Shown here piece after piece: positions 38,218 to 53,344 of a DNA stretch of 64,000 nucleotides (position 1 is the first letter of the stretch; the number at the start of each line of letters is the position of its first letter). Source of the stretch: an uncultured Bacteroidia bacterium (GTDB taxonomy: Bacteria; Bacteroidota; Bacteroidia; Bacteroidales; F082); the NCBI GenBank assembly GCA_902802535.1, contig CADCML010000006.1, forward strand, positions 1-64,000. Direction: 5' to 3'. The translations under genes and the position numbers were made by a program. Under the pieces are notes generated by a model. It did no database searches. It was not told where the DNA came from and was given only the letters and a program-made list of their open reading frames with translations.

Positions 38218-38406
38218 TCAAAACAAGTGATCTAACGTGACCACTTGCTGGAAAACGCCGCTATGGTAGCCGTATTTCAGCCCGAAAGTGGTGACGAGAG
38301 TCATTTGTAGACTTTGTTTGCGGTTGATATGGTCTAACATCCATTGCAGGCGATGGCGCAGTTAGCGTTCATTCATTTCACGAATTTCTTCTTCTCTACC
38401 TACCAT
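38218..38406 (-). pseudogene. relic of an AAA/DUF234 ATPase gene (internal deletion)
   Basis: ATG 38406 opens MVGREEEIREMNER then TAA; the same frame continues without further stops for 47 codons to TGA at 38218. The downstream part contains LQMTLVTTFGLKYGYHSG and VVTLDHLF, matching the C-terminal ends of the ATPases at 45.1 kb and 51.9 kb (LTLLTTYGLNEGRYSS, LTMDDLF in the latter). The first 14 residues match their N termini (GREHEI / GRQEEI). About 400 codons in the middle are therefore missing. A palindrome with a -7 element lies upstream, as at the intact paralogues. Confidence 0.7.
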
Positions 38407-38421
38407 TTTTCTTAAAAAGTG

Positions 38422-38472
38422 TTTTATTTTTTCTGCAAAGATATAAAAAATATCAATTGCAGAAAAATAAAA
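38422..38472 (-). promoter_or_regulatory. palindrome around the promoter of the ATPase relic
   Basis: TTTTATTTTTTCTGCA (38422-38437) and TGCAGAAAAATAAAA (38458-38472) pair with a single bulged T. The minus-strand -7 element TATCTTTG (38443-38436) is inside and overlaps the left arm. Confidence 0.65.
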
Positions 38473-38509
38473 CGATGTTTTTGATTGAAATTTTTCTGGA
38501 ATAAGATTT

Positions 38510-39388
38510 TTACTTCTTATTAAACGCCTCCAATACCTTGGCAGAGTAGGTCTTTGAAACCGGTACGGAATCCAGCCCTTCGCGCTCGAAGTCGATGACG
38601 AAACCATCGGATTCGTTGTGAAGCACGCTCACCTTGCTGATGTTGACGATATAAGAACGGTGACAGCGCATCAAACTGCTGGAATCCACGCAATTATCGG
38701 CGATGGTCTGCATCTTGCAGCGAAGCATGTAGCTGGCGATGTTGCCGCTGCGTTGGTAGAACACGTTGATGTAGTTGTCCTCCGCCTTGATATAGTACAG
38801 GTTGTCGAGTTTGACGGACAATTTCAGGTTGCCGTTGTTGTCCATCAGGTTGATGATTTCGGTGTGTTGGGGCATCACTTCGTCGTCCGATTCCACCGTG
38901 TCGCTCTTGGTGAGCATGAGGCGTTGTCTCGTGTCTTTCAGTAAGATAGAAAGAATGGTGACGGTATAGGGTACGGCCAAGGCGACAAAGGTAATCAACA
39001 CGCTTTTCGCATAGAGATAGCCGAAACTGTGGTCGGTGGACTGAATCTCAAAATAGGAAATCAGGGTGTGGCACACTGCGATAATCATGATTTCGAGGAA
39101 CAGCCAAAGAATGTACACCCCAAATGGGAAATGCCTGCTTTTGCGGATGACCCAGTTCATTAGCACGCGGCTGAGTGCCAGAAACAAGGTGCCTGTGCCC
39201 ACAAACGCCGCCGTAATGAAGAAATAATTTCCGCGTCCCACCTGAAACCAAGCAGTTTCCGAAAACGGGACGTATGCGGTCAGGAACACCAAAGCGAACA
39301 GCGTCGAGATAATCACATTAAGCACCTGCCCGACGGGTTCTGTCAGGCACTCAGGCGTTTGCGTTATCAGGCGTTTTGGGAATTTCAT
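38510..39388 (-). CDS. membrane-bound LytTR-type transcription regulator
   Basis: A 292-residue protein with four hydrophobic helices in residues 20-155 (for example NVIISTLFALVFLTAYV and SVLITFVALAVPYTVTILS) and a C-terminal LytTR DNA-binding domain (about 185-292) containing LYYIKAEDNYINVFY and MRCHRSYIVNISKV. It may read an envelope or lipid signal and bind DNA directly. The start at 39388 is chosen because the -7 element at 39419-39412 lies downstream of a longer in-frame ATG. No receiver domain is present, so it is not a standard response regulator. Confidence 0.85.
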   Translation of the reverse strand: MKFPKRLITQTPECLTEPVGQVLNVIISTLFALVFLTAYVPFSETAWFQVGRGNYFFITAAFVGTGTLFLALSRVLMNWVIRKSRHFPFGVYILWLFLEIMIIAVCHTLISYFEIQSTDHSFGYLYAKSVLITFVALAVPYTVTILSILLKDTRQRLMLTKSDTVESDDEVMPQHTEIINLMDNNGNLKLSVKLDNLYYIKAEDNYINVFYQRSGNIASYMLRCKMQTIADNCVDSSSLMRCHRSYIVNISKVSVLHNESDGFVIDFEREGLDSVPVSKTYSAKVLEAFNKK

Positions 39389-39411
39389 AGCGTTTGTTCT
39401 AAACAACGCGG

Positions 39412-39419
39412 CAAAGATA
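39412..39419 (-). promoter_or_regulatory. -7 element of the LytTR gene
   Basis: Minus-strand TATCTTTG, 23 nt before the start codon at 39388. No -33 match is seen. Confidence 0.5.
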
Positions 39420-39557
39420 TGAATTTTTTCGGGATTGCCTTGCGGCAAGAAATCTTTCAAGAATCGAAATCAAAATCTATCAAAATCAATCATATTAAGT
39501 CTGAGGTCGTCTGAAAAGCGATTTTGAATGATTTTAAAAGCAGATTTTGAACAATTT

Positions 39558-40040
39558 CTATGCGAAGCATATCCCATTAATAACCTCCCAAACCAAAGAA
39601 CCTTCAAAACCCTTCTGCATAGCGTATGCGGCCAATTTGCGTTTTCTCTCGAAATCGTTTTCAGCCTTCACGGTCTTGGATTTTGTTTTCAAAATGTCAA
39701 TAAGCCGCTGGCGATAAAGGTCTTCGTCGGTCTGTGTCAAAGCTTCGTCAATAATGTCCTTGGCAATACCTTTCTGTATGAGGTGAAAACGAATCTTGTT
39801 TATTCCCCAGCCGCTTTGGTTGATTTTGCCACGGACATAACTTCTGGCAAACCTTTCATCGTTGACAAAACGGTTGTCCACCAGATAATCAATGATTTTG
39901 TCTTTTTCTTTTTGCGGAAGGTCAAAGGTTTTCAATTTGTCCCGCACATCCTTCACGCAACGTTCCTGATAGGCGCAATATTTGGCCATTTTGTCCAAAA
40001 CTTGGTCAGGAGTGAGCGGTTGGGCGGCTTGTTTGGGCAT
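39558..40040 (-). CDS. recX: RecX-family regulatory protein
   Basis: A 160-residue helical protein of the RecX family, which modulates RecA filaments in recombination and repair. Typical blocks are YCAYQERCVKDVRDKL, IIDYLVDNRFVNDERFARSY and KIRFHLIQKGI, the three-helix repeats of the family. The start at 40040 overlaps the stop of the upstream permease gene by one base (TGATG), so the two are co-translated although functionally unrelated. recA is not in this window. Confidence 0.9.
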   Translation of the reverse strand: MPKQAAQPLTPDQVLDKMAKYCAYQERCVKDVRDKLKTFDLPQKEKDKIIDYLVDNRFVNDERFARSYVRGKINQSGWGINKIRFHLIQKGIAKDIIDEALTQTDEDLYRQRLIDILKTKSKTVKAENDFERKRKLAAYAMQKGFEGSLVWEVINGICFA

Positions 40041-41059
40041 CAGCAATCGATTTTGAGGTCGCCTTCTTTGATCCAACCGATTTTTCTGAAAATCAGGCCG
40101 AAAAGCCATGATAGTACGGCGGGCAGAATGAAGCAAACCAAAGCCATACCCATCCACATGTTTGCGCCGCCTTCGGGCATGGCCGTGTAGATGCCGATAG
40201 GTCCGACAAGGCCACAGGTGCCCATGCCGGAGCCTATGGGAATGTTCTCCAAATGGAAAACACAAGTCGAAATAGGGCCAGTGATGGCAGCAGTGAGCAG
40301 CACGGGAATCCAAATGCGCGGGTTCTTCACGATGTTGCCCATTTGCAGCATCGAAGTACCTAAACCCTGCGCGACGAGCCCGCCCCAACGATTTTCCCTG
40401 AAACTCAGGATGGCGAAACCAATCATCTGGGCGCAGCAGCCGGCTGTGGCCGCGCCACCCGCCAATCCGCCCAAACCAATGGCGAGGCAGATGGCCGCTG
40501 AACTGATGGGCAAAGTGAGCACCATGCCGATGACTACGGAGACGACGATACCCATGAGGAAGGGCTGCATTTGTGTGGCGTTCTCGATGAAGGTGCCGAG
40601 GGCGGTCATCACCCTTTGGATGGGCGCACCCACAGCGTAGGCCACCAAAACGCCGCTGATAATGACCACAGCAGGTGTGACCAAAATATCCACTTGAGTC
40701 TCCTTGTAGACCATTTTGCCCAACTCAATCGCCACAATGACAGCGGCATACGCTCCCATTGGGCCACCGAGTTCATTGCCCGCAATGCCCACAGCAATGG
40801 CGCTGAACAGCACCAAGCCTTCGCAGCCTAATTTGTAGGCGATGGCCACCGCGATGGCGGCTCCTGTGGCGGCCTTGGCGTATTTCGCGATAGTGGCGAA
40901 AGCCTCAATGCCCGTCTTGTCGCCCAAGGTTTGGAAGATGGTGCCGATGAGCAGCGAGGCGAACAAACCCAAGGCCATAGCGCCAAGAGCGTCGACAAAA
41001 TAGGCGCGCCAGGTGAGGTCGATGTTTTTGCGTTTCAGGAAGTCCTTGAAGTTTCCCAT
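40040..41059 (-). CDS. PTS EIIC-like membrane transporter
   Basis: A 339-residue inner-membrane protein with about ten helices and many Gly-rich turns (IGLGGLAGGAATAGCCAQMIG, GPIGIYTAMPEGGANMWMG). It matches the PTS_EIIC_2 group of EIIC-like permeases that occur without other PTS components; none is encoded nearby. The substrate is unknown. It shares a transcript with recX. Confidence 0.75.
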   Translation of the reverse strand: MGNFKDFLKRKNIDLTWRAYFVDALGAMALGLFASLLIGTIFQTLGDKTGIEAFATIAKYAKAATGAAIAVAIAYKLGCEGLVLFSAIAVGIAGNELGGPMGAYAAVIVAIELGKMVYKETQVDILVTPAVVIISGVLVAYAVGAPIQRVMTALGTFIENATQMQPFLMGIVVSVVIGMVLTLPISSAAICLAIGLGGLAGGAATAGCCAQMIGFAILSFRENRWGGLVAQGLGTSMLQMGNIVKNPRIWIPVLLTAAITGPISTCVFHLENIPIGSGMGTCGLVGPIGIYTAMPEGGANMWMGMALVCFILPAVLSWLFGLIFRKIGWIKEGDLKIDC

Positions 41060-41070
41060 GAGTTATTATG

Positions 41071-41178
41071 CATCGCTTTGCGTCACTGCGAGGCACGAAG
41101 CAGTCCAGAGTTAAAGTTCAATAGTTAGTATTACTCTGGATTGCTTCGTCGTTCCTCCTCGCAATGACGCGAAGCGTG
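41071..41178. repeat. palindromic repeat, copy 2 (GTCATTGCGAG type)
   Basis: CGTCACTGCGAGGCACGAAG then CAGTCCAGAG pair with CTCTGGATTGCTTCG and CGCAATGACG on the right. Same family as 19068-19164, but with a different loop and extra outer pairing (CGCTTTGCG/CGCGAAGCG). It fills the gap between the EIIC-like and nicotinamidase genes. Confidence 0.8.
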
Positions 41179-41182
41179 TCAA

Positions 41183-41902
41183 TTAGAATTCAATACCTTG
41201 GATGCCATTCTCCTTCATCAGGTCGGCGAGCTTGGTGTCGTTGTCGTCGACGGCGGCGAGGCAGTTCGTGACGATGCGGATTTTCTTGGCAGGATAGAAG
41301 GCCATCAGGTCTTTGGTGGTCTCATAGACGCAATAATCGGTGGCGATACCGCAAATGTCGATGCCTTCAAATTTTTCATTTTCAATGACATGGCGCAGTT
41401 TTTCACCGCTATGCTCGTTTTGGAAGATACTGAATTCTTCCTTGTCAGCTAAATCGCCCTTCTCCATGAAGTGGACTTGAATATTGCTTCCGTTGCCCAT
41501 CAGGCCGTCAAGAACTTTGAGCAGGCGGGGATAGATATTCATGCCTTCGGTGCCTTGCACGCAATGGGGTGGGAACACACCACCTTGCTCCACGAACGAG
41601 CAATGGTTTTTGGGATGTGCGTCTTGGGTGGCAATAATCCAACCATAGTTTTTCCAAGCGCCTTCGTTCAGGGCTTTGGCGAGGTAGTCCATGGCAGCGG
41701 GACCTTTGGCCGTAGCCAAACTGCCTGTGGTGAAGTCGACTTGCGGGTCTACGATGATGAGCAGCCGATTAGGCAGTTGGGGCTTTTCCGCTTTGGCTTC
41801 GGTCTTGTCTTCTTTTTGTCTCTTCTCTTTTTTGTCGTTGTTGCAACCCGTCATGGCGAGGGCGGCGATGAGCACAATGGCTCCGATGATGCTTTTCTTC
41901 AT
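41183..41902 (-). CDS. exported nicotinamidase-type cysteine hydrolase (lipoprotein)
   Basis: A 239-residue isochorismatase-fold hydrolase. Catalytic Asp is in LLIIVDPQVDFTTGSLA and Cys in DICGIATDYCVYETTKDL; His residues for metal binding follow in ATQDAHPKNHCSF. This matches nicotinamidase (nicotinamide to nicotinate). Unusually, the N terminus MKKSIIGAIVLIAALAMTGC is a lipoprotein signal with Cys at 20, then a charged linker rich in Lys and Glu. The enzyme would thus act in the periplasm or at the cell surface. A -7 element (TATTTTTG, 41940-41933) lies upstream. Confidence 0.85.
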   Translation of the reverse strand: MKKSIIGAIVLIAALAMTGCNNDKKEKRQKEDKTEAKAEKPQLPNRLLIIVDPQVDFTTGSLATAKGPAAMDYLAKALNEGAWKNYGWIIATQDAHPKNHCSFVEQGGVFPPHCVQGTEGMNIYPRLLKVLDGLMGNGSNIQVHFMEKGDLADKEEFSIFQNEHSGEKLRHVIENEKFEGIDICGIATDYCVYETTKDLMAFYPAKKIRIVTNCLAAVDDNDTKLADLMKENGIQGIEF

Positions 41903-42007
41903 GATTGAATGATGTTTGTTAGAAATTTGCTGCAAAAATACGGAAATTTTGAATTGCCATAAAGGGAATTGACGATTTTCGAACTTGCTATGAATGTTTT
42001 ACTTATA

Positions 42008-43129
42008 TCAATGGTTCTCAAGCCACCGGGAAAGAAAGACATTGTAAACACTATAAGAGAGGCCTTCAAGGGTTGAGTTGGCAAGTATCAGTTCCTTGTC
42101 TATAAGAGCTTCCAACAGTCGCTGGGAATTAGCCGATGTGCCAATATTGTATTTTTGGATGAATTGGGTTGAATAAGGTTTCTCAACGGATTGCTCTTTG
42201 GCCACGGCCTTCAAATAATTCCATTGGTTGGAAGTCAGCAGGTTGCGCCACTGGATGAAAGTTTGTTCGTTCTCTTTCAGGATTTGGTTGGCCGATTTCA
42301 GCACTTCTTCTTTGTCAATCTTCTTGTTGCTTTTCAGAAACACATGATTACAAAGCGATTGCGTGTAGAATGTGTGCAGTTTTGTCCAGTCAAGAATAAA
42401 GTCGAGAGCTTCCTCCGTGACAGTCTTTTTCCCTTTCTCAAGCATTCTGATAATGAACTCAGCGTAGACAGCCCTGTCAATTTTCTCGAGGTAAAGACAA
42501 CGGGTACTTTCGTAGAATGGGCTTCGGGCATCGGTGAACATCTCTGTCATTATGTGTTTCTTGCTTCCACAAAAGATAAACTGCACATTTCGCAGGGGTT
42601 GGATATAAGAACGCAACAAAGCCTCCATGTTGATACCATAATATCTGATTTGCTGGAATTCATCTATGGCGACAATGGTCTTTTTGTCTTGTTTCTCAAT
42701 AAATTCGAAGATGGAAGCAAGCGTTTGCTTTTTCTCATGGTCGGTGCGGAAAGTAAGCGTCAGTTCGGGATTTCCCGACACGGGATCGTAACTGAGCATG
42801 GGACGAAGGCCACCGAGGAATTGGAAAAACGACTTGATGGCTTTTTTCTTTTCCATAGAGGCGATGACGGCTTCGGAAAACACTTTGATGAAATCTTCTA
42901 AGGTTTCTGTCGCATAAATATCGACATAGCATGTGCTGACATTGGCTTTTTGTTGCTTTATTTCATCAAAAACGCGATAAATCAGTCCTGTTTTTCCGTA
43001 TCTACGAGGTGAAATTAGAGTAATATTTGAGCCATTTCGAAGGTATTCTACGATGGTTTTTGTCTCTTCTTCTCGGTCGCAGAAATACTCCTTAGATATA
43101 TATGGTACAAGGGCAAACGGATTTTCCAT
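42008..43129 (-). CDS. archaeal-type AAA+ ATPase
   Basis: A 373-residue ATP-binding protein of the archaeal-ATPase (PF01637-like) group. Walker A is LISPRRYGKTGL near residue 40, Walker B TIVAIDEFQQI near 150, and a sensor region ends QFIFCGSKKHIM. The C-terminal part is a winged-helix-like segment (residues 270-373) without a recognisable nuclease motif, unlike its neighbours at 45.1 and 51.9 kb. The start at 43129 is set by the promoter, which excludes the longer ATG at 43156. A 19-nt inverted repeat straddles that promoter. Confidence 0.78.
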   Translation of the reverse strand: MENPFALVPYISKEYFCDREEETKTIVEYLRNGSNITLISPRRYGKTGLIYRVFDEIKQQKANVSTCYVDIYATETLEDFIKVFSEAVIASMEKKKAIKSFFQFLGGLRPMLSYDPVSGNPELTLTFRTDHEKKQTLASIFEFIEKQDKKTIVAIDEFQQIRYYGINMEALLRSYIQPLRNVQFIFCGSKKHIMTEMFTDARSPFYESTRCLYLEKIDRAVYAEFIIRMLEKGKKTVTEEALDFILDWTKLHTFYTQSLCNHVFLKSNKKIDKEEVLKSANQILKENEQTFIQWRNLLTSNQWNYLKAVAKEQSVEKPYSTQFIQKYNIGTSANSQRLLEALIDKELILANSTLEGLSYSVYNVFLSRWLENH

Positions 43130-43134
43130 AATAC

Positions 43135-43205
43135 TTTTTTTGCTATCTATTTTCAATGCAAAAATACTACTTTTTTTGTATAATACAAAATAGATAGTAA
43201 AAAAA
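43135..43205 (-). promoter_or_regulatory. promoter enclosed in a 19-nt inverted repeat
   Basis: Arms 43135-43153 and 43187-43205 pair at 18 of 19 positions (core CTATCTATTTT / AAAATAGATAG). Between and overlapping them is a full promoter on the minus strand: TTTTG (43190-43186), 19 bp, TATTTTTG (43166-43159). A protein bound to the arms would cover the -33 element and the transcript start. Confidence 0.75.
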
Positions 43206-43231
43206 TGGTTTTTTTGAGTTTTTCAGCCATT

Positions 43232-45061
43232 CTAATTCTTGGCAGAATACAACTTTTTGATCCAATCTGAATGCCCGATTTTGCGCAAGGCATTCTTTAC
43301 CCACTCGCGGTTTTCGGGCTTGTACCAGAAGAAAAAGCGTTGTTGGGCAAGTTTTTCCTCTTTCGTTTTGGCACAAAAGACGGGTTCCAAGGTGTAGGGG
43401 TCGTAGCCGGAGTAATAGATTTCGGTGGCCAAGGTCATGGGGGTGGGGGTGAAGTCTTGCACTTGTTCCAGATGATAGCCTAATTCCTTGGTTCTCACCG
43501 CCAAATCGGCCATATCTTCAAGGTAGCAGTCGGGATGTGAGGAGATGAAATAGGGGATGAGTTGCTGGTTCAGATGTTCCTTTTCGTTGATTTGGTCGAA
43601 CTTCTTTTTCAGTTTGACGAACATGTCGAACTTGGGCTTGCGCATGAGTTTTAGGACGGCATCGGAAGTGTGCTCTGGCGCGACTTTCAGCCTTCCGCTG
43701 ACGTGTCGCGTCACCAATTGGCGGAAGTATTCATCGTAGCCCATCGCCTTGTTTTCTTCAGGTGTGCTGTCGTGCAGAAACAGGTCGTAGCGAATGCCTG
43801 AGCCGATGGTGGCTTTCTTGACCTTCGGGTGCGCGTCCACCTCTTTATATATGTCAATCAGCGGGTGGTGGTCGGTGTTGAGGTTTTTGCAAACGGTGGG
43901 TTGCAGGCAGGTCGGACGGGCGCATTTTTCGCAAAAACGTTCGTCCTTGCCCTTCATGCGGTACATGTTGGCCGAGGGCCCGCCCAAGTCGCTGATGTAA
44001 CCCTTAAAGTCTTCCATTTCTGTGACTTTCTCCACCTCGCGCATAATGGATTCCTTACTTCGTGAAGCCACAAACTTGCCTTGGTGTGCCGAAATGGTGC
44101 AGAAAGCACAACCGCCAAAGCAGCCTCGATGTAAATTGACAGAGTGCCGAATCATTTCGTAGGCGGGGATGACGCCGCGCTTGGCGTATTTCGGATGCGG
44201 CAGCCTTGTGTAAGGCAAATCGAAGGAAGCGTCAATCTGTTCGGTGGTGAAAGTCGGCAAGGGCGGGTTGATAATAAGTCTTTGGTTGCCAATGTCTTGA
44301 ATCAGTCTTGCCGCATGTTTCTTGTTCGATTCTTCTTCGATGTGGCGGAAATTGGAGGCATATTTCTTTTTGTCTTTGAGGCAGACTTCGTGCGAAACGA
44401 GTTCGATGGTCTCGCCCTCGAAAGCAGGAAGCGGTTGTTTCTTGTCTTGCAAAAAGAAGGTCTGCTTGATGTCGGTCAATTCGCTGACTTTCTTTCCGTT
44501 TTGGATGGCCTTAGCGATTTCCACCATGGTGAGTTCGCCCATACCGTAAACCCCGATGTCAGCCTTGGAATCGACCAAAATGCTGGGTTTCAGGCTGTCC
44601 GACCAGTAGTCATAGTGCGTCACGCGCCTCAACGAGGCCTCAATGCCGCCGATGACGACGGGCACATCGGGATAGAGTTGCTTGAGGATGTTGCTATAGA
44701 CCACCGAGGCGTAGTCGGGACGGAAGCCTGCCTCGCCGCCCGGGGTGTAAGCATCGTTGCTGCGCAGGCGTTTGTTGGCGGTGTAGTGGTTCACCATAGA
44801 GTCCATGCAACCCGCCGACACGCCGAAAAACAACCTCGGCTTGCCAAACTTCTTGAAATCACGCAAATCGTCCCTCCAATTGGGTTGCGGAATCAATGCG
44901 ACACGAAAACCGTTGTGCTCCAGCACCCTCCCAATGACTGCTGCCCCGAAAGCTGGATGGTCGACATACGCATCGCCCGTGACGAACACGATGTCCACCT
45001 CGTCCCAACCGCGCAGGTCAGTTTCTTTTTTCGTTATGGGGAGCCAATCGAGTAGAGTCAT
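43232..45061 (-). CDS. ygiQ: YgiQ-family radical SAM protein
   Basis: A 609-residue radical SAM enzyme of unknown reaction. The N-terminal part (1-290) has the UPF0313 pattern (VFVTGDAYVDHPAFGAAVIG, IPQPNW). The iron-sulfur motif is HRGCFGGCAFCTISAHQGK near residue 315 (C-x3-C-x2-C). A second Cys group, FCEKCARPTCLQPTVC, follows near 390. Its start overlaps the stop of the upstream AAA ATPase gene by 4 nt, so they are translated together. Confidence 0.92.
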   Translation of the reverse strand: MTLLDWLPITKKETDLRGWDEVDIVFVTGDAYVDHPAFGAAVIGRVLEHNGFRVALIPQPNWRDDLRDFKKFGKPRLFFGVSAGCMDSMVNHYTANKRLRSNDAYTPGGEAGFRPDYASVVYSNILKQLYPDVPVVIGGIEASLRRVTHYDYWSDSLKPSILVDSKADIGVYGMGELTMVEIAKAIQNGKKVSELTDIKQTFFLQDKKQPLPAFEGETIELVSHEVCLKDKKKYASNFRHIEEESNKKHAARLIQDIGNQRLIINPPLPTFTTEQIDASFDLPYTRLPHPKYAKRGVIPAYEMIRHSVNLHRGCFGGCAFCTISAHQGKFVASRSKESIMREVEKVTEMEDFKGYISDLGGPSANMYRMKGKDERFCEKCARPTCLQPTVCKNLNTDHHPLIDIYKEVDAHPKVKKATIGSGIRYDLFLHDSTPEENKAMGYDEYFRQLVTRHVSGRLKVAPEHTSDAVLKLMRKPKFDMFVKLKKKFDQINEKEHLNQQLIPYFISSHPDCYLEDMADLAVRTKELGYHLEQVQDFTPTPMTLATEIYYSGYDPYTLEPVFCAKTKEEKLAQQRFFFWYKPENREWVKNALRKIGHSDWIKKLYSAKN

Positions 45062-46488
45062 TTGCTGGGATTATAAAACAGGTCGTCCATTGTCACTTGG
45101 TATTGCACGGAGGCGGAATACTCGTTCTTGAACAATCCATGAGGTGTTATCCAAGTAGGGATGATGCCGCATTTGGTTTTCGTTGCATTGCTGAAAGCAG
45201 AGATACGGGCTTTCAGTTTCTTGTCCTCGCTTGCCGTGATGGTGTATTCCGAATAGGTGTATTTGATTTCGCAAAGGTTAATCAAATGATCGGCGCGCTC
45301 GATGATGAGGTCGATTTGGGCTTTTGGCGTAGTGTTGTTTCGCCAGGAATAAAACTCCACAGCAATACGGTCAAGCCCCAAAGCATGGCGGATTTGGTAT
45401 TGGTGGGCGACACAGATTCTCTCGAAGGCAAGTCCCAACCATGTGTTGGCTACGGGGGTGTTGAGGTGTTGCTCCCAGTAGTCCTCCGTAGTGATTTTCT
45501 TGGAGAAAGTGAGGTAAAAGAACGAGAAGAAGTCCACCAATTGGTAATAGGCATCCTTCATCTTTGGCTTTCCGTTCACTTTGGAGATGTACCGTCTGAT
45601 GAGGTCGCAGTGTACAAGGTTGTCAAGTTGCTTGGTCAAGGAGCCGCTTGACGGAGTTTTCAGTGCTTCCTCTAATTCGGATCGGGTCATGCCCTGCTTG
45701 TTTTTCCCCAAGACTTCCACGATGCGGAGATAAGGCTCAGGCGATTTGAAAAGCGAGGCGTAAAGGCGGTTGTATTCTTGGCTGAGTTCGGCATTTTTTC
45801 GGAAATAGAGCCTGTCGATATTCTGGGCAAGACTTTCCTGTTTGTCCAAAAGACTGAGATAATAAGGAACGCCGCCCAACATCATGTAGGTTTCCACCAC
45901 GTTTTGCCGAGGCCAATGGATGCCCAAGGTGTGCAGATAGGCCTCGGTTTCGGCGAGGTTGAACTGCCTTAGATAGATGCTGTGCGTGATGCGGTTGTGC
46001 AGCCCTCCGTGGTTGTTGATGATGTTGCTCACCATCCATGAGGTAGCTGACCCGCATACGATGAGGGTGACATTCTTCCGCAATGAAGCCCAAGTGTTCC
46101 AAAAATGCCCCAACGCCTTGACGAAACCCGATTTCGGCGTGTCGAAGCAAGGCAACTCGTCTATATAGATGATGCAACGGCTTTTGCGGTTATGTTGCTC
46201 CAAAGTCGTTTTGAGCATCTCAAAGGCTTCGAGCCAGTTTTTTGGTTTTTTCCCCTGATAGCCTGCCACGGCCAAGGCACTTGTGAAGGCGAACATTTGG
46301 TCTTCTTTTTTCCCGCCGATGATGCCGGAGGCTGCAAAGGAAAACTTGTTCTCGAAAAACTGTTGGATGAGATAGGTCTTGCCCACGCGCCTTCTTCCGT
46401 AAACCGCAACAAACTCAGGCTTTCCGGATTTTTGCAGTTTTTGGAGGAGTCGTATTTCCTCTTGTCGTCCGATGAAGTTCTTATCCAT
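45058..46488 (-). CDS. AAA+ ATPase with DUF234 nuclease-like domain
   Basis: A 476-residue protein. GRQEEIRLLQKL at the N terminus leads to Walker A VYGRRRVGKTYL (near 30) and Walker B CIIYIDELPCFD (near 120), followed by LIVCGSATSWM. The C-terminal DUF234-like region has PKAQIDLIIERADH then LCEIKYT, the D and E-x-K of a PD-(D/E)XK core. Its paralogue is at 51.9 kb. The start at 46488 is chosen because the -7 element lies between it and a longer ATG. Two tandem palindromes lie upstream. Function unknown; conflict or selfish roles are possible. Confidence 0.82.
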   Translation of the reverse strand: MDKNFIGRQEEIRLLQKLQKSGKPEFVAVYGRRRVGKTYLIQQFFENKFSFAASGIIGGKKEDQMFAFTSALAVAGYQGKKPKNWLEAFEMLKTTLEQHNRKSRCIIYIDELPCFDTPKSGFVKALGHFWNTWASLRKNVTLIVCGSATSWMVSNIINNHGGLHNRITHSIYLRQFNLAETEAYLHTLGIHWPRQNVVETYMMLGGVPYYLSLLDKQESLAQNIDRLYFRKNAELSQEYNRLYASLFKSPEPYLRIVEVLGKNKQGMTRSELEEALKTPSSGSLTKQLDNLVHCDLIRRYISKVNGKPKMKDAYYQLVDFFSFFYLTFSKKITTEDYWEQHLNTPVANTWLGLAFERICVAHQYQIRHALGLDRIAVEFYSWRNNTTPKAQIDLIIERADHLINLCEIKYTYSEYTITASEDKKLKARISAFSNATKTKCGIIPTWITPHGLFKNEYSASVQYQVTMDDLFYNPSK

Positions 46489-46530: not shown

Positions 46531-46640
46531 ATTCGATAGCTCCCCAAAACTCATTTTTTTTGATAGATTTGGGGAATTATCGATGCTATAAATCCCCAAA
46601 ACTCAAAAAAATTGATAGAAATGGGGGATTATCGAATCGA
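46531..46640. repeat. two tandem palindromes upstream of the ATPase gene
   Basis: Copy A (46531-46584) has TCCCCAAA pairing with TTTGGGGA plus outer TCGATA/TATCGA. Copy B (46588-46640) is a variant with ATCCCCA and TGGGGGAT. Both share CCCCAAAACTCA, an A/T run, TTGATAGA or TTTGATAGA, and ATTATCGA. They lie just beyond the -7 element. Confidence 0.7.
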
Positions 46641-46689
46641 TTAGGATGACATTTGTGGCAGATTTCCGCAAGATTTGTTTCTTTTTTCC

Positions 46690-46718
46690 TTGCCCAATCC
46701 GAAAATTCTGTATTTTTG
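46690..46718 (+). promoter_or_regulatory. promoter of the candidate structured RNA
   Basis: TTG (46690-46692), 18 bp, TATTTTTG (46711-46718). No gene starts within 300 nt downstream; the first is at 47020. Confidence 0.6.
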
Positions 46719-46723
46719 CCCCT

Positions 46724-46997: not shown

Positions 46998-47019
46998 GGA
47001 CAAACAAAACAAGTTTCAA

Positions 47020-47334: not shown

Positions 47335-47348
47335 AAGGAGAATCGAAA

Positions 47349-48737
47349 ATGAAAAGGATTAGCACAATCATAATGGCATTGGTCATGGTGATGACAATGG
47401 CACAATGCAAGAAGGACAACCCAACCACACCTGACAATCAGAATAATGTTGTGACCATCACCCTTGATGTGAAGAACAATAATGGCTCAAAAGTGGATGT
47501 GAATACTACTACAGGTACCGTTGATTTTGAAACTGGCGACAAGGTTTATGTCGGAAGCGGCGGCAAGTATGTAGGATTCTTGACCCACAACGGCACCAAT
47601 TTCGTGGGCAACATCACCAACCCGACTGAAAACCAACCTTTACAATTCTATTTTCTTGGCAATGTAACGCCAACCGAAACGCTTTCCGCAGGAACAACGG
47701 AAGAATGTTCGGTAATCATCAGCGACCAAACAGAGCATTTGCCTGTGATTTCGTGTGCAGCCTCATTTGAAAACTATGTTTCGAGTTTGACATCCTACAC
47801 AGGGCATTTGCTGAACAAGTGCGCTTTGGTGAAGTTCAATGTGACCACGCCTTCTAACTCGCCTATCTGCATTACTGGAATGAATAACAAAGTGACGGTA
47901 GATTTCTCCCAAAACACGATAACGCCCAGCCAAGATGGAGAAGGAATAATCAAGTTGCCTGCTGGAAGTGGAGAGAATGTTGAGAAATGGGCTATTTTGT
48001 TGCCGCAAGAGGCGTTGGAAGAAGGAGAAGAAGGGTCTGTTTATTCGGAGGATGGTAATTATATTGGAATACATCCATCAATTCCTACTATTATTGAAAA
48101 TGGGTATTTTGCGGAAGGGATTGTAGTATTAATTGTAATGCATTCCTATGTTGATCTAGGCCTTCCAAGCGGCCTTTTGTGGGCTACTTGCAATGTAGGT
48201 TCAGACTCACAGGAGGACTATGGTGACTATTTTGCTTGGGGTGAGACTCAACCTAAAAATACTTACAACTGGGACACGTACCAGTATTGCAATGGTGGCG
48301 ACCATACATTCACCAAGTACTGTTATGATTCTAGTTATGGTTATAATGGTTATACTGATGAATTGACTTTCCTGTTGCCCGAAGACGATGCTGCCTCGGT
48401 TATATGGGGTAGTAATTGGCGTATCCCCACTGAGGCCGAATGGGAGGAACTTTATAATAACACAACTGTTATATGGACATCTCTAAACGGTGTGAATGGT
48501 CGGCTTTTTACTGCTTCGAATGGGAATACTCTTTTCTTGCCTGCCGCTGGAGCCATTGGTGGAAGTTGGCACCAACATGAAGGAATAGGCATGTATTGGT
48601 CGAGTTCGCTCAGTGTTATGGACTATTATGGTCCCGACTATGCGAAAGAATTCATTTTCAGTATGGATTATTATCGTTTAGGTGCAAATGCTCGTATCCT
48701 TGGTGAAACTATTCGAGCAGTTCGTTCTGTTGAGTGA
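47349..48737 (+). CDS. FISUMP-domain lipoprotein
   Basis: A 462-residue protein with a lipoprotein-like signal (IIMALVMVMTMAQC, Cys near 20). The N-terminal half (30-270) is a beta-rich fimbrillin-like region. From about residue 272 it has the Fibrobacter succinogenes major paralogous pattern: YVDLGLPSGLLWATCNVG, DYFAWGETQPK, WRIPTEAEWEEL and a final YWSSS with IRAVRSV. Such proteins are surface-exposed. It may be co-transcribed with the small exported protein before it. Confidence 0.82.
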   Translation: MKRISTIIMALVMVMTMAQCKKDNPTTPDNQNNVVTITLDVKNNNGSKVDVNTTTGTVDFETGDKVYVGSGGKYVGFLTHNGTNFVGNITNPTENQPLQFYFLGNVTPTETLSAGTTEECSVIISDQTEHLPVISCAASFENYVSSLTSYTGHLLNKCALVKFNVTTPSNSPICITGMNNKVTVDFSQNTITPSQDGEGIIKLPAGSGENVEKWAILLPQEALEEGEEGSVYSEDGNYIGIHPSIPTIIENGYFAEGIVVLIVMHSYVDLGLPSGLLWATCNVGSDSQEDYGDYFAWGETQPKNTYNWDTYQYCNGGDHTFTKYCYDSSYGYNGYTDELTFLLPEDDAASVIWGSNWRIPTEAEWEELYNNTTVIWTSLNGVNGRLFTASNGNTLFLPAAGAIGGSWHQHEGIGMYWSSSLSVMDYYGPDYAKEFIFSMDYYRLGANARILGETIRAVRSVE

Positions 48738-48749
48738 TTTTAATTCGTG

Positions 48750-48806
48750 ATGCCAACCATCAAGCCGCTACAAGACCTAAGTAGAGAGGACTTTGGAGAG
48801 ACTTAA
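48750..48806 (+). pseudogene. possible antitoxin N-terminal remnant
   Basis: ATG 48750 begins MPTIKPLQDLS and stops after 18 codons. MPTIKPxxDL is a frequent start of Phd/YefM-type antitoxins. No toxin gene follows. The remaining gap up to 48995 is AT-rich and holds only a promoter-like sequence. Confidence 0.3.
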
Positions 48807-48967
48807 TGGTTGAAGATCCAAGATAGGGTGCAAAAGGCTTGGAAGAAGGAAAGGAACGCGATTATTTTCTTTTTATCTTTTCTAAATTATGCATATAAAT
48901 AGTTTGATAATCAGATTATTTAAATTCTAAAGAAATTGATAAATAGCGTTTACTGATAAAATATTAT

Positions 48968-48975
48968 TACTTTTG
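48968..48975 (+). promoter_or_regulatory. -7 element of the three-gene cassette
   Basis: TACTTTTG, 19 nt before the start of the first cassette gene. The -33 element is unclear. Confidence 0.5.
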
Positions 48976-48994
48976 CAAATTAAATTTTTGTCAA

Positions 48995-49573
48995 ATGGAA
49001 ATCAATGCTTCTATTGTTAGTATAGGTGGATGGAATTCGCGTATTTTCACCCCTCAATGGGTGGCAACCAATGTGTTTGGTATTAATGATGGGACAATTA
49101 TGGAATTGAAACTTGACGAAAGACAAATGACCTTGTTGTATAAAAGCGGTGATATTGAGTTTTCGGCAACAGAAATTGGTGTTGAATTTAAAACACATAA
49201 CACAACTGTTGATAATTGTCGCAAACTTGAAAGATGTTATCAACATTTGGTAGAGTTGTTGCCATATACTCCAATTCGAGCGTTTGGATACAATTATAAT
49301 TTGATATTCCTTCTCAATGATTTTCAAAATACTAGACTTGCACAATTTGTAGAGAGAAAAGACATTGGTGCTGATTACAAAAGTACATCTTTTTCTTTCA
49401 CGGTTTCTAAAGGAAAAGCACTTCGTTCGGTAAATGTCAATTTTCAGGACGATAAAGTAGAGGTTGTTTGTAACTTTCAATATAATAAAATTACTGATAT
49501 TCCTGAAGTCAGTGTGTTTGACTGTATTAAGGACGAATTAAAGCATATTTTAGGCAATGACACAGACTTTTAA
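48995..49573 (+). CDS. unknown cassette protein 1
   Basis: A 192-residue soluble protein, no signal peptide. Recognisable blocks are GGWNSRIFTPQWVATNVF near residue 11 and VELLPYTPIRAFGYNYNLIF near 88. I recall this WN-x-x-I-x-x-P-x-W / TP-I-x-x-G-x-N arrangement in uncharacterised proteins of other bacteria, but cannot name a family. It is the first gene of an AT-rich operon and overlaps the second by 17 nt. Composition differs from the surrounding GC-richer genes, suggesting transfer. Confidence 0.6.
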   Translation: MEINASIVSIGGWNSRIFTPQWVATNVFGINDGTIMELKLDERQMTLLYKSGDIEFSATEIGVEFKTHNTTVDNCRKLERCYQHLVELLPYTPIRAFGYNYNLIFLLNDFQNTRLAQFVERKDIGADYKSTSFSFTVSKGKALRSVNVNFQDDKVEVVCNFQYNKITDIPEVSVFDCIKDELKHILGNDTDF

Positions 49574-50063
49574 TATAATAACAAAATCATTACAACCCAA
49601 TTTAGAATTGGAAGAAGAAGTAGAGGTAGTTGGAGCTACTTGTTCTTTTGTTCAAAACAAAAAAACAGGTGTTTTTATTGCTGATTATAAGGCTTATCCT
49701 AGTCAGGGAGAATTTGCAAAGACTCTCGTAGGGAGTATAATGGGTGCAAAAAAGGAGAAACTCTATGTTGAGGCTCTTCGCAATCTTTATAAAAGAATTG
49801 ATTTCCTTGAACTCAACCAAGCATTGGAAAGCAAAGAAATTGATGAAGACCAATTTGAAAAAGAGTTGACAGTTAACGAAGATAAGTATCTTATCCCTTA
49901 TCCAGAAAAAAGGCCAGATGCTATACAGGTTTTATTGGTATCCGACATAGTTCAGAAAATCGAAAGAGTCAAAGAAATGACCGTTGACGAGGCTTCAGAA
50001 CTATTCCAACTTGACTTAAGTACCGCTGAGAATGTTTTAGAGGAGATGAAAACCTTAGCTTAA
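49557..50063 (+). CDS. unknown cassette protein 2
   Basis: A 168-residue acidic protein without signal or membrane segments. It begins with a predicted beta segment (EEEVEVVGATCSFVQNKKTG) followed by a helical half ending DEASELFQLDLSTAENVLEEM, similar in appearance to a small helix-turn-helix or coiled helix domain. No family is recognised. It starts 17 nt inside the preceding gene and ends 12 nt before the next. Confidence 0.55.
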   Translation: MTQTFNIITKSLQPNLELEEEVEVVGATCSFVQNKKTGVFIADYKAYPSQGEFAKTLVGSIMGAKKEKLYVEALRNLYKRIDFLELNQALESKEIDEDQFEKELTVNEDKYLIPYPEKRPDAIQVLLVSDIVQKIERVKEMTVDEASELFQLDLSTAENVLEEMKTLA

Positions 50064-50075
50064 TAGTTTATTGTT

Positions 50076-50513
50076 ATGGTTGAGTATTATCAACAAGGAG
50101 AATGCGTTGATGGGCACCGAGTGCAGATTACAACTAGAAAGTTGGAATCGAAAAGTTTTAGTTTAGCACCAACAGGATTCAAGGGTTTGAAATACAATTG
50201 CTCTCTCAATAGTAAATCTATTATTGACACTCCACTGTCAATAGAAGATGAAAAAACTGCAAAAAAGAAGAAGAAAACAGTTCATTGTGCTCAAGGAGAT
50301 GGGTTAAATTGTAGTAAAATGTATTTTATTGCAGAAACCACTAGAAAGTTGAATTGTTTCAAAGTGGCAATGATGAGCGGACAGCATGAATGTAGTCAAG
50401 GAAAGCCCAATACTAGAGTATATGCTGAAATTCAAACACCATTTGAGCATATTGTTCATGCAACGGAAAAAAAGTTGCAAGAATTAAAACAAAAAGAAAT
50501 AGAACAAAAATAA
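50076..50513 (+). CDS. unknown cassette protein 3, Cys-rich
   Basis: A 145-residue basic protein with six Cys and several His: GECVDGH at the start, YNCSLN, HCAQGDGLNCSK near residue 70, LNCFK and GQHECSQGK near 105. The C-x7-C and H-x-C arrangement could bind zinc or iron-sulfur. A Lys run (KTAKKKKKT) precedes the central pair, and the C-terminal 20 residues are a charged helix. Function unknown; it completes a compact three-gene unit. Confidence 0.55.
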   Translation: MVEYYQQGECVDGHRVQITTRKLESKSFSLAPTGFKGLKYNCSLNSKSIIDTPLSIEDEKTAKKKKKTVHCAQGDGLNCSKMYFIAETTRKLNCFKVAMMSGQHECSQGKPNTRVYAEIQTPFEHIVHATEKKLQELKQKEIEQK

Positions 50514-50648
50514 CTTTTTTTGCAAAAACTGTTTTTTTTACTTTCGGTACAATTATCCACGTTGACACGTTCTTCCGAATTGAAAATTCCGAAGTCCTGA
50601 TTATCACCATTTTCAATGCGCGAATGAATATTGCGGTTGCCGTGGTAC

Positions 50649-50687
50649 GACAGCCCTACAGCCCGGGCGGTATGGTGTAGGGCTGTC
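50649..50687. repeat. 12-bp perfect hairpin
   Basis: GACAGCCCTACA (50649-50660) and TGTAGGGCTGTC (50676-50687) pair perfectly around a 15-nt GC-rich loop. GCTGAGCCTGTCGAAGCA follows, another commonly repeated intergenic word. No poly-T follows, so it is not a standard terminator. Confidence 0.6.
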
Positions 50688-50845
50688 ACAAAGTTGCTGA
50701 GCCTGTCGAAGCATCGTGGCAGCCGCTTGTTTATGTCATATTTTCTCCAACGAGTCTCTCATTACACGCTTATTGTTTAAGCGTTACATAATACTTTACA
50801 ACAAAACAGCGGAGCTTCAAAAACTCTATCGTTTTTGGTGAATAC

Positions 50846-50959
50846 TTATGGATTGAAATACTCCTCCGCCATCCGATTAATTTCCTCAATGTCCAAGTTA
50901 TCAAGTTGGATTGTCGGTAGCACTTTGAAAGCGAAAAATTCCGCTTTTTTTGCAAATAC
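50846..50959 (-). pseudogene. C-terminal remnant of an unidentified gene
   Basis: In the minus frame ending TAA at 50846, 37 codons are open and read PTIQLDNLDIEEINRMAEEY before FNP, a plausible helical protein end. Two in-frame TGA codons precede it and there is no ATG. The rest of the 50.5-51.0 kb gap shows only the hairpin above and the downstream promoter. Confidence 0.35.
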
Positions 50960-50983
50960 TCATCACATTTCAAAAAATCGCTG

Positions 50984-50991
50984 TATCTTTG
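50984..50991 (+). promoter_or_regulatory. -7 element of the RelB/PIN operon
   Basis: TATCTTTG, 19 nt before the antitoxin start codon. Confidence 0.5.
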
Positions 50992-51010
50992 CCATCAAAA
51001 CAACATCATT

Positions 51011-51304
51011 ATGTCACAATCAGCATACACTATCCGTTTGGATTCAGACTTGAAAAAACGCTTCGATACGCTTTGCGAAGGCTTCGGCATGAGTGCTTCC
51101 ACGGCGTTTAATGTTTTTGTTCGGGCTGTTGTCCGTCAGCGCAAGATTCCTTTTGAAATCGAGATGTCGGAAAAAGACGAAAGTTTTGAAAAAGGCAGAC
51201 AGGCATTCCTTGAAATCAGAAGGCAAGCCGAAGAAGGTCGCTTTCCTGACCTAACATTGGAAGAAATCAATGAAGAAATCAGATTGGCAAGAGAAGGCAA
51301 ATGA
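51011..51304 (+). CDS. RelB/DinJ-family antitoxin
   Basis: A 97-residue ribbon-helix-helix protein: YTIRLDSDLKKRFDTLCEGF followed by GMSASTAFNVFVRAVV is the DinJ/RelB DNA-binding fold. The C-terminal acidic helix likely wraps the toxin. It overlaps the toxin gene by 4 nt (51301-51304). RelB/DinJ antitoxins usually pair with RelE/YafQ; here the partner is a PIN protein, a mixed pairing that is known in bacteria. Confidence 0.88.
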   Translation: MSQSAYTIRLDSDLKKRFDTLCEGFGMSASTAFNVFVRAVVRQRKIPFEIEMSEKDESFEKGRQAFLEIRRQAEEGRFPDLTLEEINEEIRLAREGK

Positions 51305-51726
51305 AGAATCATTTTGTTGTTATTGACACTAATGTCCTCGTTTCAGGTTTAATTAGCCGAAATCCTGATTCACCAACTTTGGGAATCGTGAATTACTTGC
51401 TTGCCAACAAAGGCATTATTACCCCAATGTATAATGAAGAGATTTACAAGGAATATGAAAATGTCCTACATAGAACGAAATTTAATTTTGAACCATCTAC
51501 AGTAAATGATGTTCTGGAAAGAATTCGGGACATAGGTATTTCAAGTGAAAGGAAATCTTCCAAGGAATTTATTCCCGACCCGAAAGATGTTGTGTTTTAC
51601 GAAGTTGCCTTGTCGAAAGAGGATTCGTTCTTGGTTACGGGCAATATCAAACATTTCCCGAAAGTAGATATGGTGGTCACACCAGCAGAAATGATGGAAA
51701 TCATAAAGCGTAATTTGGAAGAATAG
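51301..51726 (+). CDS. PIN-domain toxin (VapC-like)
   Basis: A 141-residue PIN ribonuclease of the 'putative toxin component, PIN family' subgroup. Acidic active-site residues: Asp in VVIDTNVLVSGLI (residue 9), Glu in YNEEIYKEYENVL, and Asp in FIPDPKDVVFYEVAL; SFLVTGNIKHFP carries the last conserved stretch. It presumably cleaves RNA when free of antitoxin. The gene ends 27 bp before a palindromic element that also borders the following ATPase gene. Confidence 0.85.
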   Translation: MKNHFVVIDTNVLVSGLISRNPDSPTLGIVNYLLANKGIITPMYNEEIYKEYENVLHRTKFNFEPSTVNDVLERIRDIGISSERKSSKEFIPDPKDVVFYEVALSKEDSFLVTGNIKHFPKVDMVVTPAEMMEIIKRNLEE

Positions 51727-51752
51727 TTTTCAATACCGACCGAAAATCAATC

Positions 51753-51801
51753 TGAGTTTTTTCCAAAATCGAGAAAAAATCACAATTTTGGAAAAAACTC
51801 A
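51753..51801. repeat. 49-bp palindromic element, upstream copy
   Basis: Perfect 17-nt arms TGAGTTTTTTCCAAAAT (51753-51769) and ATTTTGGAAAAAACTCA (51785-51801) around a 15-nt spacer. It ends immediately before the -33 TTG of the next gene. The other copy is at 53296-53344. Confidence 0.85.
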
Positions 51802-51831
51802 TTGTGGTTTCAGAATAATTTATTTCCTTTG
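51802..51831 (+). promoter_or_regulatory. promoter of the 51.9-kb ATPase gene
   Basis: TTG (51802-51804), 19 bp, TTCCTTTG (51824-51831), one mismatch from TAnnTTTG. It directly abuts the palindrome. Confidence 0.5.
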
Positions 51832-51855
51832 CATCCTGTTAGAATATAGAATGTT

Positions 51856-53280
51856 ATGGAAAAATTGATAGGTCGCGAACATGAGATAAAATTGCTGAAG
51901 GAATATACCAGTTCCGAGCATCCTGAATTTGTTGCCATTTATGGCCGCAGAAGGGTCGGCAAGACTTATCTCGTCAACCAACTGTTCAATGGAAAAATGG
52001 CTTTTGCCATGACGGGCGTACTCAACGGCACCAAGGAGGAGCAGATGGAGGCTTTCATTGACGCCATGCAGGAATATAGCGGCAAACTGCCCGAAAAACC
52101 CAAGACATGGATGGAGGCTTTCAGGATTCTGAAACTTTATCTGAAAAAGAAAGTCACGCTGAAACGCCGTTGCATCGTGTTCCTCGATGAATTGCCTTCG
52201 ATGGACACGCAACGGTCGGGATTCGTGCGGGCATTGGGCTATTTTTGGAACAGTTGGGCTTCGCTGCAAGACAACCTGACGCTGATTGTGTGCGGCAGCG
52301 CCACCTCGTGGATGATACGCAACATCGTCAACGACAAAGGCGGCCTCCACGACCGCATCACACACGAATTGCATTTGCACCCGTTTACGCTGAAAGAGAC
52401 GGAGTTATACCTCAAGAGCCGGCAATTCAAGTGGGACCGCCTGACCGTCATGCAGGCATACATGGCCTTGGGCGGCGTGCCCTATTATTTGAGCCTGCTT
52501 CATCGTGGCGAGAGTTTCGCCGCCAACATCGACCGACTGTTTTTCGGCGACGAAGAAGAACTTCGCAGGGAATACAAACGGCTGTATTCCACTTTGTTCA
52601 AGTCGCCGGAATCGTATATGACCATCGTCAATGCTCTGGCAAAAGCCAAGGCAGGAATGTCGCGCGACGAATTGAGAAAGGCTTTGGGGCAGGATTCAAG
52701 CGGATCGCTCAGCGGGAAACTTGAAGACCTCGTCAATTGCGACATTCTTCGCAAGTATCCCATCCACAACAAAACGACGAAAAAGAATTCCGCCATCTAC
52801 CAACTTGTTGATTTCTACTCGCTTTTCTACCTTACCTTTGTGTCGCGTGCCGAGGCTGAGACGGGCTATTGGAGCAACCATATCGACACTTCCGAGGTCA
52901 ACACATGGTTGGGATTGAGTTTTGAGCGGGTGTGCCTGACCCATGTACAACAAATCAAGCAAGCACTTCACATCGATAGGATTTCGACCCAATTCTATTC
53001 GTGGCGAAGCCAGAAAAGTACACCAAAAGCGCAAATCGACATGGTTCTTGACCGCGCCGATGGCATCATCAATCTGTTTGAAATCAAATACAGCGAGGCG
53101 GATTTTCGCCTTGATAACGATGAGGCCAAAAAACTGCAAAACAGGATGGCGACCTTCCGCAATGAAACAAAAACAAAGAAAGCCTTATGGCTCACATTGC
53201 TAACTACTTACGGTCTTAATGAAGGCCGTTATTCCTCAACTTTTGTTTCGGTTTTAACGATGGATGACTTGTTCCAATAA
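51856..53280 (+). CDS. AAA+ ATPase with DUF234 nuclease-like domain
   Basis: A 474-residue paralogue of the 45.1-kb ATPase, colinear over its length. N-terminal LIGREHEIKLLKEY, Walker A IYGRRRVGKTYLV (near 32), Walker B CIVFLDELPSMD (near 110), sensor LIVCGSATSWM, central winged-helix region with AKAGMSRDELRKAL, and C-terminal PKAQIDMVLDRADG with LFEIKYSEAD as the PD-(D/E)XK-like core. It lies between two copies of a 49-bp palindrome, one abutting its promoter and one 15 nt after its stop. Function unknown; the nuclease-like end and flanking repeats suggest a selfish, defensive or regulatory unit. Confidence 0.82.
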   Translation: MEKLIGREHEIKLLKEYTSSEHPEFVAIYGRRRVGKTYLVNQLFNGKMAFAMTGVLNGTKEEQMEAFIDAMQEYSGKLPEKPKTWMEAFRILKLYLKKKVTLKRRCIVFLDELPSMDTQRSGFVRALGYFWNSWASLQDNLTLIVCGSATSWMIRNIVNDKGGLHDRITHELHLHPFTLKETELYLKSRQFKWDRLTVMQAYMALGGVPYYLSLLHRGESFAANIDRLFFGDEEELRREYKRLYSTLFKSPESYMTIVNALAKAKAGMSRDELRKALGQDSSGSLSGKLEDLVNCDILRKYPIHNKTTKKNSAIYQLVDFYSLFYLTFVSRAEAETGYWSNHIDTSEVNTWLGLSFERVCLTHVQQIKQALHIDRISTQFYSWRSQKSTPKAQIDMVLDRADGIINLFEIKYSEADFRLDNDEAKKLQNRMATFRNETKTKKALWLTLLTTYGLNEGRYSSTFVSVLTMDDLFQ

Positions 53281-53295
53281 TCGGTTTTTGTAATC

Positions 53296-53344
53296 TGAGT
53301 TTTTTCCAAAATCGATAAAAAATCACAATTTTGGAAAAAACTCA
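53296..53344. repeat. 49-bp palindromic element, downstream copy
   Basis: Same orientation, arms and spacer as 51753-51801 with one base different (CGAT instead of CGAG at the spacer start). It lies between the convergent ATPase and aldehyde dehydrogenase genes. Confidence 0.85.

Follow-up and report, generated by a model that had tools for sequence, protein, structure and literature searches.

Within a 64,000-nt window of DNA from an uncultured Bacteroidia bacterium (contig CADCML010000006.1, positions 1 to 64,000), we analyzed genes for AAA+ ATPases (PF01637) that are accompanied by long palindromes. One group of these genes, referred to here as class A, belongs to PDC-S27, a single-gene phage defence candidate of PADLOC-DB, and good sequence evidence points to class A as a self-recognising mobile gene unit. 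We propose, with moderate confidence, that PDC-S27 genes are compact mobile units that read their own palindrome and whose own nuclease would drive their movement. The genome to which the window belongs is a 3.7-Mb draft (85% complete, 6.3% contamination), Bacteroidales-like judging from its relatives, with 41 PF01637 matches in several classes; within the window, class A is represented by two intact genes and a relic, and a second class, class B, by one gene. The class A features of the window are the following (in the text, L numbers denote loci and G numbers genomes).

51749-51801, unstranded: upstream palindrome at the left unit edge, with 17-bp perfect arms TGAGTTTTTTCCAAAAT and ATTTTGGAAAAAACTCA and a 15-nt AT-rich spacer
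51856-53280, + strand: PDC-S27 ATPase of class A, with AAA+ domain (PF01637), winged helix and C-terminal PD-(D/E)XK-type motif
53292-53344, unstranded: downstream palindrome copy at the right unit edge, 98% identical to 51749-51801 over 53 nt
45058-46488, - strand: second PDC-S27 ATPase of class A, with the same C-terminal motif as in 51856-53280
46531-46634, unstranded: two tandem palindromes with an arm sequence of their own, upstream of the 45058-46488 ATPase
38414-38481, unstranded: palindrome before the relic, with 25-nt arms that are 76% complementary
38218-38406, - strand: class A relic made of the first 14 codons and the C-terminal tail, with the middle deleted and an in-frame stop

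The initial annotation of this DNA had described palindromes at or beside the promoters of three intact ATPases and a relic, and all four were located there. Its view of the three intact ATPases as one unit had to be given up: they fall into two classes, and the third of them (42008-43129, class B) has no PD-(D/E)XK motif and a different dyad. The recurrence of the 51749-51801 palindrome behind its gene was absent from that annotation, and comparison of the flanks of the 45058-46488 ATPase found no downstream palindrome copy there. The relic was assigned by eye against an alignment of the class A family.

Class A proteins are ~475 aa long and are ORC/Cdc6-like AAA+ and winged-helix proteins with a PD-(D/E)XK-type end. 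All three that were scanned matched the PADLOC model PDLC04984 (PDC-S27) over nearly its full length, with E values of 1e-190 and 8e-186 for the two window genes; residues 1-473 of the 51856-53280 protein correspond to model positions 1-473 of 474 (E 1.3e-190). Four residues, E357, D395, E409 and K411, are invariant in both class A alignments (16 own-genome members and 53 sequences) and read as a putative PD-(D/E)XK site, in keeping with the earlier remark that two intact members have such ends. The nuclease assignment of class A is based on this conserved motif and on the accessible part of PMC12988326, which describes PDC-S27 as an ATPase fused to PD-(D/E)XK. In an AlphaFold2 model (predicted local distance difference test, pLDDT, 90; predicted template-modelling score, pTM, 0.89), the helix-turn-helix (HTH) helices of the winged helix span residues 270-277 and 283-294. 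Foldseek placed 2qen first, followed by Cdc6/Orc1 bound to origin DNA (2qby, E 4.8e-9, template-modelling score (TM-score) 0.36-0.46), and additionally matched STAND and NLR immune ATPases.

Compared with other promoters, as the initial annotation had suggested doing, palindromes are clearly enriched upstream of class A genes. A hairpin score of at least 12 was found in 129/186 class A genes vs 11/129 controls (Fisher p 4e-29); the controls, all with intergenic DNA upstream, were sampled from 400 kb of the window's genome. The ratio is approximate, because the controls represent a single genome and class A many, and because the control promoters have a lower AT content (59% vs 65% for class A promoters). 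With relatives removed, the fraction was 78/121 (<85% protein identity) and 53/79 (<60%), and in the window's own genome it was 12 of the 15 class A genes examined. Sequence common to both flanks (score at least 16), often a second palindrome copy, was present in 88/186 class A genes, or 47/121 and 31/79 after removal of relatives at 85% and 60% identity, vs 4/129 controls, which include one Y1-like and one DUF4143-like gene (names of neighbouring genes, namely aldehyde dehydrogenase, PIN pair, sugar kinase, Y1 and DUF4143, were given by eye throughout unless taken from record annotation). Overall, a hairpin was called in 171/193 distinct class A genes; this set includes three repeat views of one gene each (L141, L144, L145), which lie outside the 186 and were removed from the pair counts, as were two pairs of overlapping or mismatched loci.

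Among the 111 genes with a called hairpin that remain after removal of proteins >85% identical, the median arm is 16 nt and the median AT-rich spacer 15 nt; class A spacers are 73% AT. In 96/111 genes (6% in shuffles) a -7 box (TAnnTTTG) is present, at a median of -31, the nearest palindrome ends a median of 25 nt upstream of this box, and 22/111 genes have at least two related upstream hairpins.

The palindromes are private to their genes. The window palindrome occurs at only two places in its own assembly, which are both ends of its own gene. Across 60 genomes, its own included, the same pattern was found 15 times, 11 times next to the gene and 4 times solo, and the L008-type pattern 9 times, each beside its gene. 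The arms of 15 own-genome class A genes score at most 8 against one another, and a search for the 15 arm cores in 464 kb matched only the window's own palindromes and one 12-mer in apparent coding sequence. A dispersed family of repetitive extragenic palindromic (REP) sequences was rejected in view of these counts.

Arm similarity also follows protein similarity across the 111 genes (Mantel r 0.19; 0/999 permutations). When overall identity was regressed out, the signal peaked at residues 265-296 (partial r 0.18, null maximum 0.114, 0/500 permutations), which form the HTH of the winged helix in the AlphaFold2 model, and it persisted in pairs below 55% identity (0/300). Among single columns, S281 ranks first in covariation with the arms, with S284 and S20 tied next. 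Because it is in the HTH that arm and protein similarity go together most, self-recognition is likely: a class A protein probably recognises its own palindrome via this motif.

Comparison between genomes shows that the segment moves as a unit. In G044, a relative of the window unit has different flanks, and its homologous stretch (84%) extends from one palindrome to the other (51753-53343). There were 204 gene pairs with at least 72% DNA identity, 179 of them without repeat views; 23 with called palindromes were syntenic on both sides. Non-syntenic left boundaries fell within 5 nt of the outer palindrome edge in 51/97 cases and within 15 nt in 61/97, and 37 right boundaries without a downstream palindrome end near the stop codon (median -7).

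Insertion also left scars. Long direct repeats around the unit (palindromes masked, score at least 20) were found in 29/186 genes vs 1/367 shuffled flank pairs. These 29 were sorted by eye, a subjective step: 13 were set aside as leftover palindromes, terminators or dispersed repeats (L060, L009, L193, L212, L057, L213, L080, L241, L125, L048, L110, L209, L138), 5 are ambiguous (L084, L124, L189, L063, L076) and 11, two of them orthologs, were kept. This gives ~10 clear target duplications (L064, L131, L120, L079, L134, L054, L239, L051, L198 and the orthologs L225/L083, counted once), whose length varies from about 23 to 277 bp and is neither short nor fixed. They also occur in units without a downstream palindrome (L051, L054, L120).

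Sites free of the unit complete this picture. At three loci the duplicated stretch is single-copy in unit-free relatives: for L131 in G044 and G029, with the left flank common to G044; for L225 in G018 and G033, with both flanks shared; and for L120 in relatives that share the right flank only, their left flanks not matching. In genome G024 the neighbours of the L205/L072 unit are present, and both the unit and the palindrome are missing. Two relatives share only the right gene of L239, and the pre-insertion junction is not comparable there; at the L116 site, the right gene was present in 24 other loci read (36/60 genomes matched), none with an ATPase or the L116 palindrome, and the left flank was not shared. 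Homing into a pre-existing palindrome is not supported, since sites lacking the unit have no palindrome (G024, 24/24 other genomes read at the G044 site and, by eye, G018 and G033 at the L225 site).

At the right flank of L120, and at G000:C5:34105-34715, class A ATPases lie by one conserved gene in several genomes of the genus, with an own-genome class B ATPase close by. This L120 right-flank site is a possible insertion hot spot.

Units have been lost as well as gained. At the window's locus, between the PIN pair and aldehyde dehydrogenase sides, G030 has one palindrome and no ATPase; this palindrome is identical to the right-hand copy of its relatives and reads as a loss product, the opposite order being possible there. 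Solo palindromes of the window type occur in G030, G012, G007 and G016 and represent three loci, G012 and G007 carrying theirs at the 3' end of a sugar-kinase-like gene and G016 at another locus. No PDC-S27 match was found in ~1.5 kb on each side of the solo palindromes in G012, G007 and G016, with G007 read on one side only because of a contig end. In addition, a gene truncated at its 5' end in G018 retains only the right palindrome, and the window relic 38218-38406 is a further loss product.

Directly left of the 51749-51801 palindrome lies an antitoxin and PIN toxin pair (51011-51726), which is missing at that locus in G055 and G018. Positions 50565-50690 are part of a dispersed repeat of ~120 bp with the hairpin GACAGCCCTACA...TGTAGGGCTGTC; it also stands beside the ATPases L009, L113 and L115, and is REP-like.

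In the mechanism that we propose, a unit consists of a promoter and a single ATPase-nuclease gene, preceded by at least one gene-specific palindrome and, in about half of the cases, followed by a further copy of it. The winged-helix domain would bind the protein's own palindrome. With the upstream palindrome close to the promoter, the protein would most likely repress itself; the palindromes also lie at the edges of the moving segment. On these palindromes the ATPase would assemble and the PD-(D/E)XK domain would nick or cut; the segment might then enter new sites at nicks set far apart, and host repair of the gaps would produce target duplications of long and variable length. Recombination or excision between two palindromes would leave a solo palindrome. 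More tentatively, the unit could represent a new class of autonomous mobile element whose sole protein, combining ORC/Cdc6-like AAA+, winged-helix and PD-(D/E)XK parts, recognises its own private palindromes, drives excision and insertion by way of distant nicks and keeps further copies of its specificity out of the genome; on loss, a single palindrome would stay behind. The model put forward in the initial annotation, a self-regulating and possibly selfish ATPase-nuclease that reads its own palindrome, can be kept for the two PDC-S27 genes and the relic, where HTH covariation, a palindrome upstream of the -7 box and the mobile unit argue for it. It is not supported for the 42008-43129 ATPase, which has no nuclease motif and belongs to a class in which only 2/39 genes share sequence across both flanks.

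Several observations weigh against this proposal. A downstream palindrome copy is present in only 51/111 deduplicated genes, so two palindromes are not obligatory, and a clear target duplication in only ~10/186. Right boundaries with a downstream palindrome are looser than the left ones (13/59 within 5 nt and 23/59 within 15 nt of the edge), the boundary pairs are mutually dependent, and some shared left edges may reflect an operator conserved by selection instead of movement. One candidate for a relocated unit, L008, was rejected because its right flank is orthologous and the break is due to a differing palindrome number, so homology breaks alone are no proof of movement; in view of pair dependence, operator conservation and this break, insertion scars weigh more than boundaries. 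Similar copies within one genome were absent among the retrieved genes (0/703 within-genome pairs with at least 72% DNA identity vs 149/6557 between genomes, a figure that vertical inheritance inflates; the five richest genomes each contributed 14 to 19 of their 16 to 27 counted class A members), and a replicative transposon is not supported for this reason. At the protein level, Pfam at E 0.01 returned no transposase domain, giving only ATPase families, DUF234 and DUF4143 (in protein 1), with no DDE, HUH, tyrosine or serine recombinase encoded. The DUF234 match fell just below the cut-off in one window class A gene and was absent from the other two class A proteins scanned, and no nuclease was among the 50 Foldseek matches listed. 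Finally, covariation is a small effect, and single columns that lie outside the HTH (T150, R242, A401, E437, R384) come close, at ~0.095; even so, the place of the peak is what protein recognition would predict.

Among the other explanations considered, the one that fares best, although we regard it as somewhat unlikely, is that class A is a defence or selfish nuclease gene carried passively in the manner of restriction-modification genes, with palindromes that are only operators and with insertion by host recombination. The position of the palindromes upstream of the -7 box, the target duplications in units without a downstream palindrome, the PADLOC listing as a phage-defence candidate and the matches to STAND and NLR ATPases speak for it. 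Long, variable target duplications are moreover reported for restriction-modification genes in the accessible passages of PMC3031569 and PMC1643837 (citing Nobusato et al. 2000). Passive carriage alone does not explain why about half of the members have a near-identical copy behind the gene, or why solo palindromes exist at three loci.

A minimal replicon-like element, in which the ORC/Cdc6-like ATPase is the initiator and the arms with their AT-rich spacer are the origin or iterons, seems improbable. It would make one specificity per genome an incompatibility effect, in line with the lack of a similar pair in any one genome among the retrieved genes, and the AT-rich spacers and the structural match to Cdc6/Orc1 on origin DNA directly after 2qen agree with it; to our knowledge, however, a PD-(D/E)XK domain is no part of the known ORC/Cdc6 initiators. 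Still less probable is a trans-acting transposase that mobilises the palindromes as ends, like those of miniature inverted-repeat transposable elements (MITEs) or REP sequences, with the ATPase as a passenger: a gene resembling a Y1 IS200-type transposase does lie between flanking repeats elsewhere in the genome (L181), but the arms vary by gene and covary with the protein's own HTH, and the palindromes are not dispersed. That they are ordinary terminators or chance palindromes of AT-rich promoters is scarcely credible, since hairpins of this score in 11/129 control promoters are outweighed by the class A enrichment, the near-identical copies on both sides and the protein covariation.

Relative to known systems, the class A unit appears to be a small mobile gene unit of a kind not described before. 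The PDC-S27 entry of PADLOC-DB is the same protein family with the same ATPase/PD-(D/E)XK fusion; the available portions of PMC12988326 and PMC13356809, which name PDC-S27, describe prevalence and fusion and mention no palindrome, self-recognition or mobile unit, the features found here. Judging from the partial sources cited above, restriction-modification genes are the nearest precedent, being likewise compact nuclease genes with long variable target duplications and no transposase of their own; the class A unit differs in holding one gene, with no companion methyltransferase between its edges, and in the gene-specific palindromes beside it. RAYT genes are flanked by their own palindrome, each gene having its own, as in class A; they encode a Y1/HUH transposase and have dispersed REPs or REPINs, whereas class A has no such transposase, one gene between its edges and palindromes that are not dispersed. 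Orc1/Cdc6 proteins share the AAA+ plus winged-helix fold (2qby) and have inverted binding sites around AT-rich DNA; class A differs by its C-terminal PD-(D/E)XK-type domain and by private sites beside its own gene. Tn7 combines the AAA+ protein TnsC, the PD-(D/E)XK protein TnsA and the DDE transposase TnsB and makes a short fixed target duplication. Class A has AAA+ and PD-(D/E)XK modules in common with it, with a weak profile match to VchTnsC (E 0.0086), and lacks both a TnsB-like DDE transposase and the short fixed duplication. Insertion sequences and transposons differ from class A by a recombinase, several recent copies per genome and a short fixed duplication, and homing endonuclease genes by the intact recognition palindrome that the uninserted class A sites read do not have.

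PDC-S27 is widespread, with 3503 copies in archaea and 4562 in bacteria according to the accessible part of PMC12988326; 26 archaeal-ATPase-like proteins, probably acquired via horizontal transfer, are reported in a lichen alga in the portion available of PMC6652019. Members on plasmids of Segatella, Butyrivibrio and Emticicia have upstream hairpin scores of 17, 15 and 14, and one faecal phage contig scores 17; the hairpins of Phocaeicola and Malaciobacter are weaker or more distant from the gene. In Wolbachia phage WO (L353:1381-3025), a PDC-S27 relative follows the portal and GP5 head genes (record annotation) and is preceded by two tandem ACCGCGG...CCGCGGT inverted repeats, one imperfect, with 7-nt arms below the cut-off. 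Scores of at least 12 were reached in 3/9 viral contigs read. A phage-borne system was rejected on account of the rarity of relatives in viral data (10 loci in an IMG/VR pattern scan; 3/50,697 phage records).

None of the papers listed by searches of the open-access literature gives an account of this palindrome arrangement with PF01637, DUF4143 or DUF234 genes. In the parts of the literature accessible to us, PDC-S27 is a defence candidate without a mechanism and validation is pending for most such PADLOC candidates; the palindromes now supply a predicted DNA target for most copies, so binding, cutting and movement are testable gene by gene. The class A nuclease may be the mover of its unit, or the protein may serve in phage defence, and the mobility of such genes is a warning that they may count as defence merely through being mobile.

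Two further ATPases of the window stand apart from class A.

42008-43129, - strand: class B ATPase (PF01637) without PD-(D/E)XK motif, related and outside the mobile PDC-S27 unit
43135-43205, unstranded: operator-like inverted repeat at the start of the class B ATPase, with 19-nt arms that are 95% complementary and a 33-nt spacer
966-2546, - strand: DUF1703-type ATPase, with an inverted repeat at 910-961 that falls behind its stop codon

For the DUF1703-type gene, no inverted repeat was reported at its start, which agrees with the earlier statement that it has no promoter palindrome. Class B proteins are ~375 aa long, and no nuclease motif was seen in the 8 that were aligned, including the window's; by eye, their C-terminal end resembles a winged helix, for which Pfam gave a weak hint in L017 alone. 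Upstream dyads scoring at least 10 were found in 25/39 class B genes vs 23/129 controls, the class B scan allowing spacers to 40 nt plus 20 nt of coding sequence and the control scan 35 nt and no coding sequence. Class B upstream regions, among them those of L030, L318, L322 and L317, have compact, subfamily-specific dyads with 3-nt centres between about -105 and -40, and such dyads are probably autoregulatory operators. In another family, the flanks of a DUF4143-type ATPase (L178:1374-2513, - strand), which we take to be of the PDC-S01 kind, share a direct repeat of score 32; the same kind of bracketing may also occur in the DUF4143-type family.

Elsewhere in the window, an inverted repeat at 8417-8495 has 33-nt arms made of TTAGCTATTAGCC-like repeats, and another at 22628-22769 has 28-nt arms (AACTACAGATTATACAG...) and an 86-nt spacer.

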